In this document: positions 1,511-64,000 of the stretch, piece after piece
Layout: every line of letters begins with the position of its first letter
Position numbering within the stretch: position 1 is the stretch's first letter
DNA from: an uncultured Bacteroidales bacterium
GTDB lineage: Bacteria > Bacteroidota > Bacteroidia > Bacteroidales > UBA932
Length of the DNA stretch: 64,000 nucleotides
Direction: 5' to 3'
Assembly (NCBI GenBank): GCA_900321715.1
Contig: ONXC01000007.1
Coordinates: 1 to 64,000, forward strand
The notes under the pieces: generated by a model
What the model saw: the letters and a program-made list of their open reading frames with translations, nothing else
Told to the model about the DNA's origin: nothing
The model's database searches: none
Program-made: the position numbers and the translations under genes

Positions 1511-4187
1511 GTATTTGGCACTGGCCGTCCTGGCGGCCTCCTGCCAAGTGCAAGAACTTCAGAATCCACAGGCTCCGACAAAATCGGAGCCTGCGGTCTC
1601 TGATGTCATTCCCGGGAAGGCTACGGTGGAGTTTTCGGAAGAAATGATCACTGTAATAGAAGAAGGTCTTCAGGAGGGTAACGGCGTTATGGAGGAGCTT
1701 GGAGTTTCTTCCATGATAAGGGTATTCCCCGACGCCGGTGAATATGAGGCTCTCCACCGCCGGGCAGGCCTTCACCGCTTTTACAGGGTAACCTATTCCA
1801 AAGACATCCCCGTCACCAAGGCTGTTGCAGGCCTTTCGGCCGTTCCCGGCGTGGTGTCCGTGACACCGGTCCACCGTATCTCGCTGCGGTCCGTCTCTTT
1901 CAACGACCCCTATCTTTCCAAGCAGTGGCACTACATCAATACAAAAACTGCCGGGGCCGATATAAACGTTGAAGGCGTATGGGAGCAGTATACTACCGGA
2001 AGCTCCAAAGTGATAGTTTCCGTGGTGGACGAACCTGTGGATCCCTCTCACCCGGATCTGCAGGAGAACCTATGGAGAGATGCCCAGGGCCATACCGGCT
2101 ACAATTTCGGCCGTAACAGCTGGGACCTTTCAATCCGCCCGGAAGGCGGACGTTTCGAAGGGCAGTGGGTGAATGGTGATATCGGCCACGGAACCCACGT
2201 AGGCGGCACAATATCGGCCGTCAACAACAACGGGAAGGGCGTGTGCGGCATTGCCGGCGGAGACGCTGCCAATGGCACAACGGGTGTTCTGGTGATGTCC
2301 TGCGCCATCTTCTCAGGCTATAACGGCTGGGCCGATGATGAGCAGAGCGCCAACGCCATAACCTGGGGAGCAGACCACGGTGCCGTCATCTGCAATAACA
2401 GCTGGGGACCCGAAGAAAATATTAATGATCCTTTAGCCAGCTATGATCCCGCCTGCCAGGCAGCGATAGATTATTTCATCGCCTACGCCGGCTGCGACCC
2501 CCAGGGCAACCAGCGTGCCGATTCCCCCATGAAGGGTGGCCTGGTGTTTTTCGCCGCTGGCAATAGCTCCTACAACCACGACCCTTACGGTGAGTACGAC
2601 CCAATCATATCGGTTGGCGCCACCAGCGGTACCGGCAAGGGGGCAAGTTATTCCAATTACGGAAACTGGGTTGACATTGCGGCTCCCGGAGGAGATTGGG
2701 GCTATCCAATCTGGAGTACGCTTCCGGAAAAAGTCAACGATTACGGCAGCGGAGCCGGTACGGTAGTGAATACCGGCTATTACGGTGGCACAGACTGGCA
2801 GGGCACGTCAATGGCATGCCCTCACGCAAGCGGGGTGGCCGCTCTGATCGTTTCATACTTTGGCGGTGAAGGATTCACGGCCGATGACGCCAGGGCTATA
2901 CTGTTTGGCGGTCTTGGAAACACAATTTCCGTAAGCGGCTATTCCAACCGGAAGGTTGGCCGGAAGCTTGACGCCCTGGCCTCTTTCCAGTGGGCTCTGG
3001 AAAACGGCTATACTGCAGGCGGAACAACTCCCGATCCAGACCCGGACCCTGACCCGGATCCCGATCCAGACCCTGATCCTCCGGGAAACCGCGCTCCGGT
3101 AATATCTTTGTCCCAGACATTTGTGGATGTATATTACAATCAGGGCGGAATCAATGTAAAAGTCAATGTGTCAGATCCTGACGGGGATCAGATTACCCTT
3201 GAAGTAGAGCCGGGTTCAAAGGCTCTCAGATATGACAGTACAAAGGGTATGGCAATACTTGACGGCTATAAGGATGCTCCCGGCAGTTATGTTGCCAAGT
3301 TCAAGGCCACGGATCCTGACGGAGCAAGCTCGGAGGCATCACTCTCATATGAAATCAAGGACAACAGGGCCCCTTACGTAGAGGCAACTCCCGCCGGAGT
3401 TACCCTTAAGGCCCATGAGAGCGCCGTGATTTCCGTCAATGCCACGGACCCTGACGGAGACAGTGTGACTTATACCCTTGAAAGCGCCGGTTCTGACGCG
3501 GTGGTATTTGACGTCTCCACCAGAACCGTAAGGATAACTGCGGCAAAGGTTCCCGCCGGCGGCAGCTTCAAGGCTGTGGTAAAGGTTACGGATACACCTA
3601 CTACTAATACTGTCCAGCCAAAATCGGCCACGGTTGACATTCCGTATATCATTCTGCCCAATACGGCACCTACCGTAACGTCGGCCATTTCCGACATATC
3701 TCAATATGGCCTTAACAATATCTCCGTCAATATCGGCAGTCATTTCAAGGATATTGATGGAGAAGTGCTCAGATATGAGGTTTCCGTTAAGAATGAGTCA
3801 ATAGCTGCGGCGCAGGTCAGTTCTGAGACGGCCGTGATCACGCCTAAGACATACGGAGTTACCACGGTCACCATAACGGCCAGGGACGGTATCGGGGCAT
3901 CGGCCACGCTTTCGTTCAATGTTGCCTTTGTGAATGCCCAGCAGCCGGTAACGGTAGGAAGCTCCCAGGTGACGGAAGATCTTACGCTGAACATTGATGC
4001 GGCCTCTCCTGTGAGTGTGGAAGTACTGGTGTACAACACTTCGGGGGCACAGGTGCTAAGGAAGATAGTGACGGCAAGCGTGTTCAATCCAGTGCAGCTG
4101 GATGTATCTTCACTCTCACCGGGAAGGTATACCGCCATAGTGAAATACGGCGGTAAGAGTACCACGGTGAAGTTTGTCAAATACTAG
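1488..4187 (+). CDS. Surface subtilisin-like serine protease (S8) with Ig-like domains and C-terminal sorting domain
   Basis: 899 aa. The chosen ATG gives a lipoprotein signal with lipobox LAAS-C19; the start lies inside the 3' end of eno. In order: a propeptide-like region (about 40-130), then an S8 catalytic domain with D181 (SVVDEPVD), H234 ([10 protein letters not shown]), N359 (AAGN, oxyanion hole) and S441 ([11 protein letters not shown]). A (PD)n spacer (about 515-531) and three or so cadherin/Ig-like repeats with DPDGD motifs follow. The last ~75 residues ([26 protein letters not shown]) resemble the type A sorting domain of type IX secretion cargo. It probably degrades proteins at the cell surface. 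Having both a lipobox and a T9SS-like tail is unusual. No promoter is seen, so it may be read through from eno. Confidence 0.9.
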
Positions 4188-5521
4188 AGAGTATCCTGTT
4201 TCAGAGACTCAACGTACCGCGCGATCCTTTCAAGTTCGCGCGGTATTGATATACTCTGGGGGCAGCGCGGCAGGCATTCCTTGCAGTGGATGCAGCGGTC
4301 GGCCTGGCGGACTGTTGCTACAGCCTTGTCATAGCTTCTGAGATAAGCCTTCTTGAGCTTTGCGTAATCCTTCTGGTCACGGCTCTGGGCAAAGGTGCCC
4401 TCCGTGACTGAGCGGTTGTAGTGCTGGAATACGCCCGGGATGTCAATGCCCCAGGGGCAAGGCATGCAGTATTTGCAGTCCGTGCAGTTCACAAGCGGAT
4501 ACTCCTTCATCTGGACGGCCATCCTTTCCATGAAGGAGAGCTCTTCCTCAGTGAGGGGCTTGAAGTGGCCGAAGGTATTGATGTTATCCAGCAGGGGGTC
4601 CATGGAAGTCATGCCGGAGAGGATGCACAGAACGCGCGGGAAGGTGCCGCAGAAGCGGAACGCCCATGAGGCTATGCTCTTTTCCGGCTCCCTTTCCTTG
4701 AGCTGGCGGGAAATGCCTTCTGGGACATTGGCTAATCGGCCTCCTAGCAAGGGCTCCATGATTACAATGGGAATGCCGCGCTTGTCAAGTTCTGCGTAGA
4801 GGTACTCCGCGTTGGCGTTCCTTACTCCGTCGGCGTGGCGCCAGTCAATGTAGTTCATCTCTATTTGGCAGAAGTCCCAGTGCATCTGCCCGCTGTCTTC
4901 CAGCTCCATGAAGTAGTCAAACTCATTCTGGGAGCCGTGGAAGGAGAAGCCAAGGTTGCGGATGCGGCCGGCTTCCTTTTCCTTCAGGAGGAAAGGCACC
5001 ATGCCGTTTTCCATGTAGCGCCAGTTGAAGGCGTCCTTTCCTCCTCGGCCGATAGAATGCAGCAGGTAATAGTCAAAGTACTCCGTGCGAAGCTGCTCAA
5101 AGGAGCGGTGGTACATCTCTATTGAAGCCTCTGCCGATACATTTCCGAAGTTGGAGAGCTTGGTGGCAATGTAGTAGCTCTCCCTGGGATGGCGGGAGAG
5201 GGCCTTTCCTGCGGCGTCCTCGCTGAGGCCCTGGAGGTATGCGGGGGAGGTGTCAAAGTAATTGACGCCGTGCTCCATTGCATAGTCCACCATCTCATTC
5301 ACGGCCTCCTGGTCTATGATGTCATTGCCGTCCGGCCCCTTTATCATGGGCCAGCGCATACAGCCGAATCCCAGCAGGGACACGCGGTCTCCGTTATTGG
5401 GATTCTCACGGTAAATCATTGCCTCGGGGCTTTCCGTGGCCTTTTCTGCACTCTTTTTTGGCGCGCATGCGGCTGCCACAGCGGCAGCGGCGCTTGTTTT
5501 CAAAAAGTCTCTCCTGTTCAT
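4184..5521 (-). CDS. Tat-exported aldo/keto reductase with C-terminal 4Fe-4S domain
   Basis: 445 aa. It starts with a twin-arginine signal (RRDFLK, residues 3-8) ending at C19, so it may be an exported lipoprotein. The centre is an aldo/keto reductase TIM barrel (FGCMRWPM, NYFDTSPAYLQG, DYYLLHSIG). The C-terminus carries two cysteine clusters, CTDCKYCMPCP and CIHCKECLPRCPQ, expected to hold 4Fe-4S clusters. The pattern matches the Bacteroidota family of AKR-ferredoxin oxidoreductases; the substrate is unknown. It overlaps the preceding polyferredoxin gene by ATGA, so the two are translationally coupled and probably exchange electrons. Its 3' end overlaps the stop of the convergent protease gene by 4 bases. 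Confidence 0.88.
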   Translation of the reverse strand: MNRRDFLKTSAAAAVAAACAPKKSAEKATESPEAMIYRENPNNGDRVSLLGFGCMRWPMIKGPDGNDIIDQEAVNEMVDYAMEHGVNYFDTSPAYLQGLSEDAAGKALSRHPRESYYIATKLSNFGNVSAEASIEMYHRSFEQLRTEYFDYYLLHSIGRGGKDAFNWRYMENGMVPFLLKEKEAGRIRNLGFSFHGSQNEFDYFMELEDSGQMHWDFCQIEMNYIDWRHADGVRNANAEYLYAELDKRGIPIVIMEPLLGGRLANVPEGISRQLKEREPEKSIASWAFRFCGTFPRVLCILSGMTSMDPLLDNINTFGHFKPLTEEELSFMERMAVQMKEYPLVNCTDCKYCMPCPWGIDIPGVFQHYNRSVTEGTFAQSRDQKDYAKLKKAYLRSYDKAVATVRQADRCIHCKECLPRCPQSISIPRELERIARYVESLKQDTL

Positions 5522-63414: not shown

Positions 63415-63427
63415 AGCATTTTTCTTT

Positions 63428-64000
63428 TTACAGCTCCAGGGATCCCGTGCGGTAGAAGTGGACCAGGGAGGTCTGGAAGAGGTATTCGCAGGAGGCCTGG
63501 ACCAGGTCGGATTCGGCCTTCATCATACGGTTGCGGGCCTCGGAGAACTCCGTTAGGGTGGCGGCACCGGCCTCATAACGGGCTTCCATAAGCGAGAAGG
63601 CATCCTTTGCGGCGGCACTGGCTTCCAGCGAGGCGTCGTACTTTGCCTGGGCCGCAACGGCGCCGTTCCAGGCCTGGTAAATCTCCTTGTACAGTCCCTG
63701 CTGGGCGCGGCGCAGCTGCACCCTCTGGGCCTCCTGCTGGATTTTGGCCGATCTTACCTGATTCCTCACCTGGAACCGGTTGAAGATGGGAATGTTGAGG
63801 GAGAGTCCCACATACTGTGAGAAGTTGGCTCCGAGCTGGTTCCAGAACCCGGCAGTGGGGAAGGAAGAGTAATAGTTGGTTCCAAGCCCGGCATTCAGTG
63901 AAAGCGAGGGGTAGTATCCGCTCTTTGCAATTTCTATAGAATGCTCCGTGCCTTTAAGCCTGAGTTCTTCGGCCTTGATGGAAGGACGGTCCATGACTGC
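63428..64000 (-). CDS. TolC-family outer-membrane efflux protein, C-terminal part
   Basis: The gene enters from beyond the right edge; about 190 C-terminal residues are visible. RPSIKAEELRLKGTEHSIEIAKSGYYPSLSLNAGLG followed by a barrel strand (FNRFQVRNQVRSAKIQQEAQ) and long amphipathic helices (MEARYEAGAATLTEFSEARNRMMKAESDLVQA) is the standard second repeat of TolC proteins. It would form the outer-membrane channel of a tripartite efflux pump, whose RND and adaptor genes are presumably outside the window. Confidence 0.9.
   Translation of the reverse strand, partial: AVMDRPSIKAEELRLKGTEHSIEIAKSGYYPSLSLNAGLGTNYYSSFPTAGFWNQLGANFSQYVGLSLNIPIFNRFQVRNQVRSAKIQQEAQRVQLRRAQQGLYKEIYQAWNGAVAAQAKYDASLEASAAAKDAFSLMEARYEAGAATLTEFSEARNRMMKAESDLVQASCEYLFQTSLVHFYRTGSLEL

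Follow-up and report, generated by a model that had tools for sequence, protein, structure and literature searches.

The heptamer ATCGGCC as a dense, DNA-level word of one clade of rumen Bacteroidales and a candidate tag of self-DNA

We analyzed a stretch of 64,000 nucleotides, hereafter the window, from an uncultured Bacteroidales bacterium (GenBank assembly GCA_900321715.1, contig ONXC01000007.1, positions 1 to 64,000), in which the heptamer ATCGGCC and its reverse complement GGCCGAT are strongly over-represented. Strong enrichment of this word characterizes a single clade within a genus of rumen Bacteroidales, and the results below support selection or molecular drive acting at the level of the DNA word. 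As to its role, we tentatively favor a tag of self-DNA, most likely an uptake signal for natural transformation, in the knowledge that this explanation may well prove wrong.

The window (GC 53.8%) holds 48 copies of ATCGGCC and 55 of GGCCGAT, the first site starting at position 1955 and the last at 63746. The initial annotation, which had arrived by hand at about 48 and 55 copies against some 10 expected, counted correctly; Markov models of orders 0, 1, 2, and 3 place the both-strand expectation at 9.6, 10.6, 9.6, and 17.6, respectively, and the word ranks first by z among the heptamers of the window under each of these orders, which bears out the claimed over-representation. Under the maximal order, 5, the 103 observed sites are hardly above the 93.8 expected, because the excess is carried by the word's own hexamers, ATCGGC and GGCCGA. 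The source genome as a whole (G000; 2,044,722 bases, 29 contigs, 80.6% complete) contains 1617 + 1662 = 3279 sites, approximately one per 624 bases (1.6/kb), while the reversed word, used as a control, occurs 126 + 100 = 226 times; as this control varies with base composition, densities were used alongside it.

In a 444.7-kb sample of the source genome (20 stretches plus the window), 788 sites represent a 12-fold excess over a second-order Markov model. Variants of the last letter were enriched to different degrees (ATCGGCA, 251 vs. 44.7 expected, 5.6-fold; ATCGGCG, 77 vs. 40.3, 1.9-fold; ATCGGCT, 49 vs. 36.8), with C far commoner than A at that position, as were the first-letter variant TTCGGCC (170 vs. 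84.8, 2.0-fold) and the internal variant ATCGTCC (50 vs. 32.1, 1.6-fold), and the remaining single-letter neighbors were near or under expectation. A preceding G was rare (3–8%) in all contexts with more than 10 sites, intergenic DNA included; GATC is itself depleted in this genome (1003 vs. 1798 expected), which may contribute to that rarity. Head-to-head overlap of two sites, which yields the palindrome ATCGGCCGAT, was seen 18 times in a 464.7-kb sample, and both instances named in the initial annotation were confirmed by position (Table 1).

Markov models alone do not separate a DNA word from codon effects, and we therefore turned to synonymous shuffles and to the occupancy of positions at which the peptide permits the word. 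With genes called by a simple in-house caller (93% of the sample coding), site density was 1.80/kb within genes and 1.38/kb in intergenic DNA (43 sites in 31 kb). Synonymous shuffling of 362 genes gave a mean of 102.9 sites and a highest value of 118 in 100 shuffles, compared with 745 observed, an excess of about 7-fold; sense and antisense orientations were equal (373 vs. 372), and five of the six reading frames exceeded the shuffle level. Positions permitting the word were then scored in 956 genes from 29 word-bearing samples, namely five genomes and 24 named loci picked for enrichment. Here the word filled 357 of 457 Ile-Gly-x positions (0.78), 769 of 1694 Ala-Asp positions (0.45), and 538 of 1772 Ser-Ala positions (0.30), with the three rarer frames filled at 82/422, 19/122, and 25/148. 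The corresponding values in five word-poor congeners were 0.33 of 118, 0.04 of 381, and 0.02 of 380, and for the rarer frames 0 of 113, 0.14 of 37, and 0 of 35. Genes below 46% GC carried the word at 1 of 22 permissible positions, in a set of only 5.8 kb with a shuffle expectation of 0.6, and genes of 46–50% GC were already 5.9-fold enriched. Sites were spread evenly over gene quintiles, except that the opening quintile was poorer in sense sites (56 of 380). Competition between translation and the word was considered and rejected: quintiles of codon typicality differed little (6.2- to 7.8-fold), although some site deserts, which include the genes for triosephosphate isomerase, phosphotransacetylase, and acetate kinase, coincide with central metabolism, and the phosphoglycerate kinase gene of the window carries 2 sites.

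An artefact of codon usage or codon pairs, to which the spelling of the common codons GCC-GAT and ATC-GGC by the commonest frames might point, is refuted by the shuffle test and retains virtually no probability, given also the rare codons employed, the intergenic sites, and the little-filled equivalent peptide positions of word-poor congeners. The codon contexts that the initial annotation had singled out, including Ser-Ala sites with TCG and Arg-Pro sites with CGG, match the gene frames (Table 1). It had also named two ways in which the word could be explained away, a count that fits a codon model and an enrichment limited to a single frame or to the codon pair GCC-GAT; the 745 sites against 103 in shuffles and the five enriched frames speak against both, and its argument for selection on DNA rather than protein is supported by shuffles, conservation, and occupancy, as selection or drive.

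Conservation was evaluated by asking how many sites of the source genome are intact in relatives, compared with heptamers in the same phase 9–18 bases away. In G735 (89% identity) 54 of 66 sites were intact vs. 216 of 528 flanking heptamers, with 42/53 vs. 138/424 in G738, 24/36 vs. 89/288 in G736, 20/30 vs. 45/240 in G737, and 19/41 vs. 76/328 in G739. Thus, of the six sister species with good coverage, five conserve the sites at least twice as often as the flanking heptamers, and two further small relatives concur (8/11 vs. 29/88 and 5/9 vs. 24/72). Patchiness of identity, examined as a sign of recombination, gave no clear signal either way.

The relatives are uncultured Bacteroidales, mainly from the rumen or ruminant gut, and their genus may be Candidatus Cryptobacteroides. 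Among 400 genomes of the genus, 41 had at least 2,000 sites, 33 had 1,000–1,999, and 326 had fewer than 1,000. All 40 genomes from other families of the order fell below 0.3 sites/kb, compared with 1.6 in the source genome, and 295 genomes sampled from the phylum besides the source genome were all below 0.7 sites/kb, the maximum being that of G173, about 0.65/kb when calculated with rounded genome sizes. In a 41-row ComEC tree nearly all elevated genomes fell in one 12-row branch (95/93), with G036 (7.3-fold, on a low control count) and G014 (3.4-fold) outside it. A 105-row ComEC tree combined the 41 sampled genomes with 64 of 80 named loci, after removal of 11 that duplicated sampled genomes and 5 shorter than 9 kb; in this quick one-gene tree, built from a query that favored the word clade, all 39 rows enriched at least 3.5-fold lay inside one 49-row branch (Shimodaira-Hasegawa-like approximate likelihood ratio test, 99), the rest of which comprised 8 middle rows and 2 low rows (L195 and G034). 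Enrichment labels required 13 changes on this tree, mostly from high to middle rows or the reverse, vs. a shuffle mean of 43.9. G034, although inside the clade, lacks the word and shows no replacement word in 56 kb, and the word-poor congeners G016, G022, G036, and G044, sampled at 73–75 kb, show no comparable heptamer. Outside the genus, G235, G343, G290, and G173, from other families of the phylum, had ratios to the reversed control of about 5 to 8 at low density (maximum 0.65/kb), and G077, from another family of the order, had 474 sites vs. 34 reversed (ratio 14) at 0.18/kb; these may represent a weak form of the word or an effect of composition.

Related spellings were found within the genus. 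An initial k-mer scan of 40 congeners, with one stretch of at most 20 kb from each, was too noisy for naming other words, and the calls given here rest on larger samples with a synonymous-shuffle null. ATCGGCC is the word of G000, G019, and G028, and is about 3-fold over shuffles in G037 and G005, whereas G057 prefers ATCGGCA (55 vs. 11.8) over ATCGGCC (41 vs. 12.7). G031 uses ATTGGCA (50 vs. 11.3) and ATTGGCC (50 vs. 13.3), and the sample of G030 showed a weaker word, ATTGCC (172 vs. 68). Genome-wide in 300 genomes, ATTGGCM made G031 a far outlier (1568 vs. 151 in 1.4 Mb); G553 (782 vs. 107) had a high ratio at one third of the density of G031, and G463 (454 vs. 30) appears compositionally different. 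A or C is favored after the sixth letter in G000, G057, and G031, and before the word G is disfavored in G000 and G057, and T in G031. G044 showed a mild excess of heptamers containing CGATCG (L034, L092–L094; CCGATCG, 34 vs. 20.9 in shuffles, 4.5-fold when corrected for the genus pool), perhaps through absence of the avoidance of GATC seen elsewhere.

A further spelling is that of UBA4230 (G740), which has 81% identity to the source genome in aligned DNA and is nested beside it in the tree. Its word is TTCGGCC (62 in 35 kb vs. 9.8 expected and a shuffle mean of 11.6), with some ATCGGCC retained (18 vs. 4.5) and KTCGGCC at 3647 vs. 908 genome-wide. A census of TTCGGCC in the genus yielded a single outlier, G717 (3128 vs. 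582), which may be the same species, while several ATCGGCC-rich genomes were 2- to 3-fold enriched. In-place conversion between the two spellings was rejected: at 59 aligned TTCGGCC sites of UBA4230, the source genome has TTCGGCC at 11 and ATCGGCC at 6. The spellings therefore lie mostly at different places, which implies that a change of spelling proceeds by turnover.

Strand counts per locus were balanced (chi-square 11.4 on 22 degrees of freedom), and across 45 bins of 10 kb strand bias did not correlate with GC skew (r 0.01), so that the sample shows no skew of the replichore or leading-strand type; this agrees with the near-equal strands and the lack of a polarised FtsK-orienting polar sequence (KOPS) pattern described in the initial annotation. 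Locally, orientation does matter. Among adjacent sites, inverted pairs outnumber direct ones (971 vs. 807, p 1e-4), an excess limited to distances of up to 600 bp (beyond which the counts are 320 vs. 314), whereas direct pairs are the commoner for four other frequent heptamers. Against a null of random filling of permissible peptide positions, same-orientation pairs within 300 bp were too few (284 vs. about 362), and opposite pairs (435 vs. about 388) showed a surplus similar to that of distant pairs; the resulting ratio of same to opposite pairs of 0.65, vs. 0.94 (standard deviation 0.06) under the null, was not reached in any of 200 randomizations. The effect was replicated when the source genome was taken by itself and when only species beyond its subclade were used (0/200 in both); word-poor congeners had too few sites to serve as an orientation control. 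A nearby copy facing the same way therefore seems redundant, whereas one facing the opposite way seems independent, and this suggests that the word is read by a directional reader. Terminator hairpins were rejected, as inverted pairs at 7–60 bp did not exceed the null (78 vs. 92).

Three kinds of dense genomic words are known, namely Chi, uptake sequences, and highly iterated palindromes such as HIP1 (PMC4390886), and each of them matches ATCGGCC in part. Confinement to a clade, variation in spelling, and the loss in G034 with no visible replacement lead us to favor an uptake code. Like the DNA uptake sequences (DUS) of Neisseriaceae, the dialects of which follow phylogeny (PMC3630211), ATCGGCC is asymmetric, present in thousands of copies on both strands, in genes and gaps, and its spellings follow phylogeny; unlike them, it has 7 rather than 10–12 letters, a Bacteroidales host, a local orientation effect, and no type IV pilus motor, hence no route through a ComP-type pilin. 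It resembles the uptake signal sequences (USS) of Pasteurellaceae in being dense, with one core and few spelling variants (PMC12616744, PMC1939737), but its core is shorter, its flank preference is weak, and no pilus motor was found.

If this uptake code is real, the density of the word would be upheld by selection or molecular drive on DNA, and a DNA-handling machine would read it in one orientation. Word-bearing DNA from lysed relatives would be preferentially imported, through a putative outer-membrane channel and then ComEA and ComEC, and would recombine in, the word spreading wherever the protein code tolerates it. A shift in the preference of the receptor would lead to the genome being re-spelled by turnover at new places, as in ATCGGCC vs. 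TTCGGCC or ATCGGCM. Enrichment at the DNA level, conservation of sites, restriction by clade, variant spellings, the local effect of orientation, and core competence genes are shown by the data; we infer the uptake driver, the DNA receptor as reader, the polarity of reading, and the pilus-free route. As to the competence genes, 60 of 61 genomes of the genus have the ComEC domain, 18 of 19 have DprA, and all 37 examined have HHH_3 (ComEA-type), a domain also found in other proteins; the HHH_3 set in the source genome includes a 328-residue frame. The ComEC of the source genome is a protein of 362 residues with only the Competence domain by Pfam (L061:7267–8355), and ComEC frames in the genus are mostly of about 350–430 residues (range 134–562 among the matches listed). 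Porphyromonas gingivalis, also of the Bacteroidales, is naturally competent and requires ComEA and ComEC for this, with an outer-membrane step that is unknown (PMC11532111); a pilus-free route therefore seems to exist in the order.

Several observations weigh against an uptake tag. USS uptake was reported to be orientation-independent (PMC1939737), in contrast to the local orientation effect of ATCGGCC. The T2SSE/PilB-PilT motor (PF00437) was below cut-off in 24 of 25 genus genomes, the source genome included (the exception being G016), and known uptake sequences depend on such a motor. Word-poor congeners have ComEC and DprA just as often, so that these genes leave the trait unexplained, and none of the machinery genes surveyed separates word-rich from word-poor congeners. 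The searches, which did not include recombination nucleases or, genome-wide, methyltransferases, revealed no reader protein. Furthermore, site spacing is near random rather than even (coefficient of variation 1.07), one frame, xGG CCG ATx, stays at the shuffle level (6 vs. 5.1), and UBA4230 retains 10 of 48 source-genome sites vs. 60 of 384 flanking heptamers, an absence of excess conservation that we read as a reflection of its different spelling. Finally, these organisms are known here from metagenome-assembled genomes only. The uptake sequence proposed in the initial annotation is accordingly plausible but unproven: the genes for ComEC, DprA, and a ComEA-type protein are in place, and the type IV pilus motor is not.

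It is possible, though we would lean on this no more than lightly, that words for the recognition of self-DNA have evolved independently a third time, here in Bacteroidales with no type IV pilus motor, as a class read with strand polarity and having at least 3 spellings (ATCGGCC/ATCGGCM, TTCGGCC, and ATTGGCM) inside a single rumen genus. Among the literature matches listed, in which subscription literature was thinly covered, no such word was described for Bacteroidetes/Bacteroidota, Bacteroidales, or Cryptobacteroides.

Chi-like and methylation-coupled words remain serious rivals. The first of these, which we consider rather unlikely, supposes that a RecBCD- or AddAB-type nuclease of the clade halts at ATCGGCC from one side and loads RecA, each spelling being the Chi of its species. 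Chi words have 5–8 letters and are GC-rich, asymmetric, over-represented, species-specific, and read with polarity (PMC5959072), all of which fits ATCGGCC if its polarity is as suggested above, and the orientation effect, with same-way redundancy within 300 bp and independence of opposite copies, favors a reader of this kind. The initial annotation had set Chi aside on account of equal strands; leading-strand skew, typical of E. coli Chi and not seen for ATCGGCC, is however also missing from several published Chi words (PMC5959072), and a local polarity that fits a directional reader was found here. What counts against Chi is density and distribution. E. coli Chi occurs once per 4.5 kb, a 4- to 8-fold over-representation, and Pseudomonas syringae Chi has a 7-letter core with 4564 copies in 4.98 Mb (PMC5959072); ATCGGCC is about 7 times denser than the former, and one site per 600 bp with 78% occupancy at Ile-Gly exceeds published Chi densities. 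All congeners should need a Chi, yet four well-sampled ones have no comparable word, and G034, within the clade, has neither the word nor a visible replacement.

A role like that of cyanobacterial HIP1 (GCGATCGC) is unlikely, but has specific points in its favor. Here a putative orphan methyltransferase would mark one strand, and mark-dependent repair or strand discrimination would make and keep the sites. HIP1 and the alternate HIPs occur at high density in particular clades, give way to other words in some lineages, and covary with methyltransferases, and single-base deviations from them fall preferentially at either end of the word (PMC4390886). ATCGGCC shares the extreme density and the lineage-specific replacement, and its enriched deviations likewise fall mostly at the ends, with ATCGTCC excepted; these deviations, together with the depletion of GATC, recall HIP1, and a one-strand mark would yield same-strand redundancy. 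Unlike the HIPs, however, ATCGGCC is not palindromic, and its orientation matters locally.

We regard as improbable a chromosome-organizing or segregation word bound by a nucleoid, translocase, or packaging protein. Its genome-wide presence on both strands, in coding and intergenic DNA, and its local orientation effect would suit such a role, but it has none of the replichore skew of a KOPS-type polar word, is strong in one clade only, and is absent from two rows within that clade. A function-less, context-dependent bias of mutation or repair is very improbable. It would affect coding and non-coding DNA alike, and spellings could track changes in repair enzymes; moreover, 9 of the 23 single-letter differences between site and non-site in G735 and G738 are A/C exchanges at the last letter. 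The other 14 are of many kinds at five positions (0, 2, 3, 5, and 6), which speaks against a single mutational bias, as do conservation of sites beyond that of their flanks and avoidance of same-way neighbors, which such a bias would not be expected to produce.

Two families of proteobacteria, both using type IV pili, are established as taking up DNA selectively by sequence. If ATCGGCC is an uptake code, it would extend such codes to a new phylum and would point to an unknown outer-membrane DNA receptor; otherwise, it would be an unusually strong code of the Chi or HIP kind. Either way, the sister pair ATCGGCC/TTCGGCC offers a direct route to the reader protein. The word could also provide a sequence handle for the delivery of DNA into uncultured gut bacteria and could separate native from newly acquired genes. 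Should it prove to be a third class of recognition word, competence with no pilus could be sequence-selective, and a genome could be re-spelled within about 19% nucleotide divergence.

Table 1. Word sites, site-poor stretches, and neighboring genes in the 64,000-base window.
Feature	Position	Strand	Context	Basis
Population of 103 sites (48 ATCGGCC on +, 55 GGCCGAT)	1955..63752	.	Genes and intergenic DNA	Exact count and statistics
ATCGGCCGAT, head-to-head overlap of two sites (palindrome)	26679..26688	.		Exact count
ATCGGCCGAT, second palindrome of the window	50597..50606	.		Exact count
Ser(TCG)-Ala site	2213..2219	+	Subtilase-like gene 1260-4187	Position and gene frame
Ser(TCG)-Ala site	3899..3905	+	Subtilase-like gene 1260-4187	Position and gene frame
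Arg(CGG)-Pro site (rare frame)	19629..19635	+	Gene 19229-20305	Position and gene frame
Arg(CGG)-Pro site	21771..21777	+	Gene 20315-23329	Position and gene frame
Site-poor stretch	11549..18666	.	Single site at 15125; genes for S-adenosylmethionine synthetase, outer-membrane barrel, BACON protein	
Longest stretch in the window with no site, 4.8 kb	30487..35247	.	Contains gene 31795-34758 for a Big_2 protein, of lower GC	
Outer-membrane barrel protein with CarboxypepD_reg domain	13110-16478	+		
BACON protein	16600-17961	+		
Lipobox-bearing BACON and NucA/EXOG-like nuclease, RGH motif	18053-19225	+		
Exo_endo_phos_3 protein	19229-20305	+		
CarboxypepD_reg protein, 1004 residues	20315-23329	+		

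In addition to the word itself, three local features were recorded. The right end of contig C8 of the source genome (L002:11451–11851) carries a tandem repeat with a unit of about 61 bases that runs off the contig; it was considered as a clustered regularly interspaced short palindromic repeats (CRISPR) array and rejected, being a minisatellite. The genes at 13110–23329 (+) of the window form, as far as their domains indicate, a possible row for handling nucleic acids at the cell surface. A word-free, AT-rich gene pair (GC 0.42–0.43) at 61369–62119 (+) encodes a PIN-domain protein and a protein with a sub-threshold match to DUF6364, and perhaps represents a toxin-antitoxin module.

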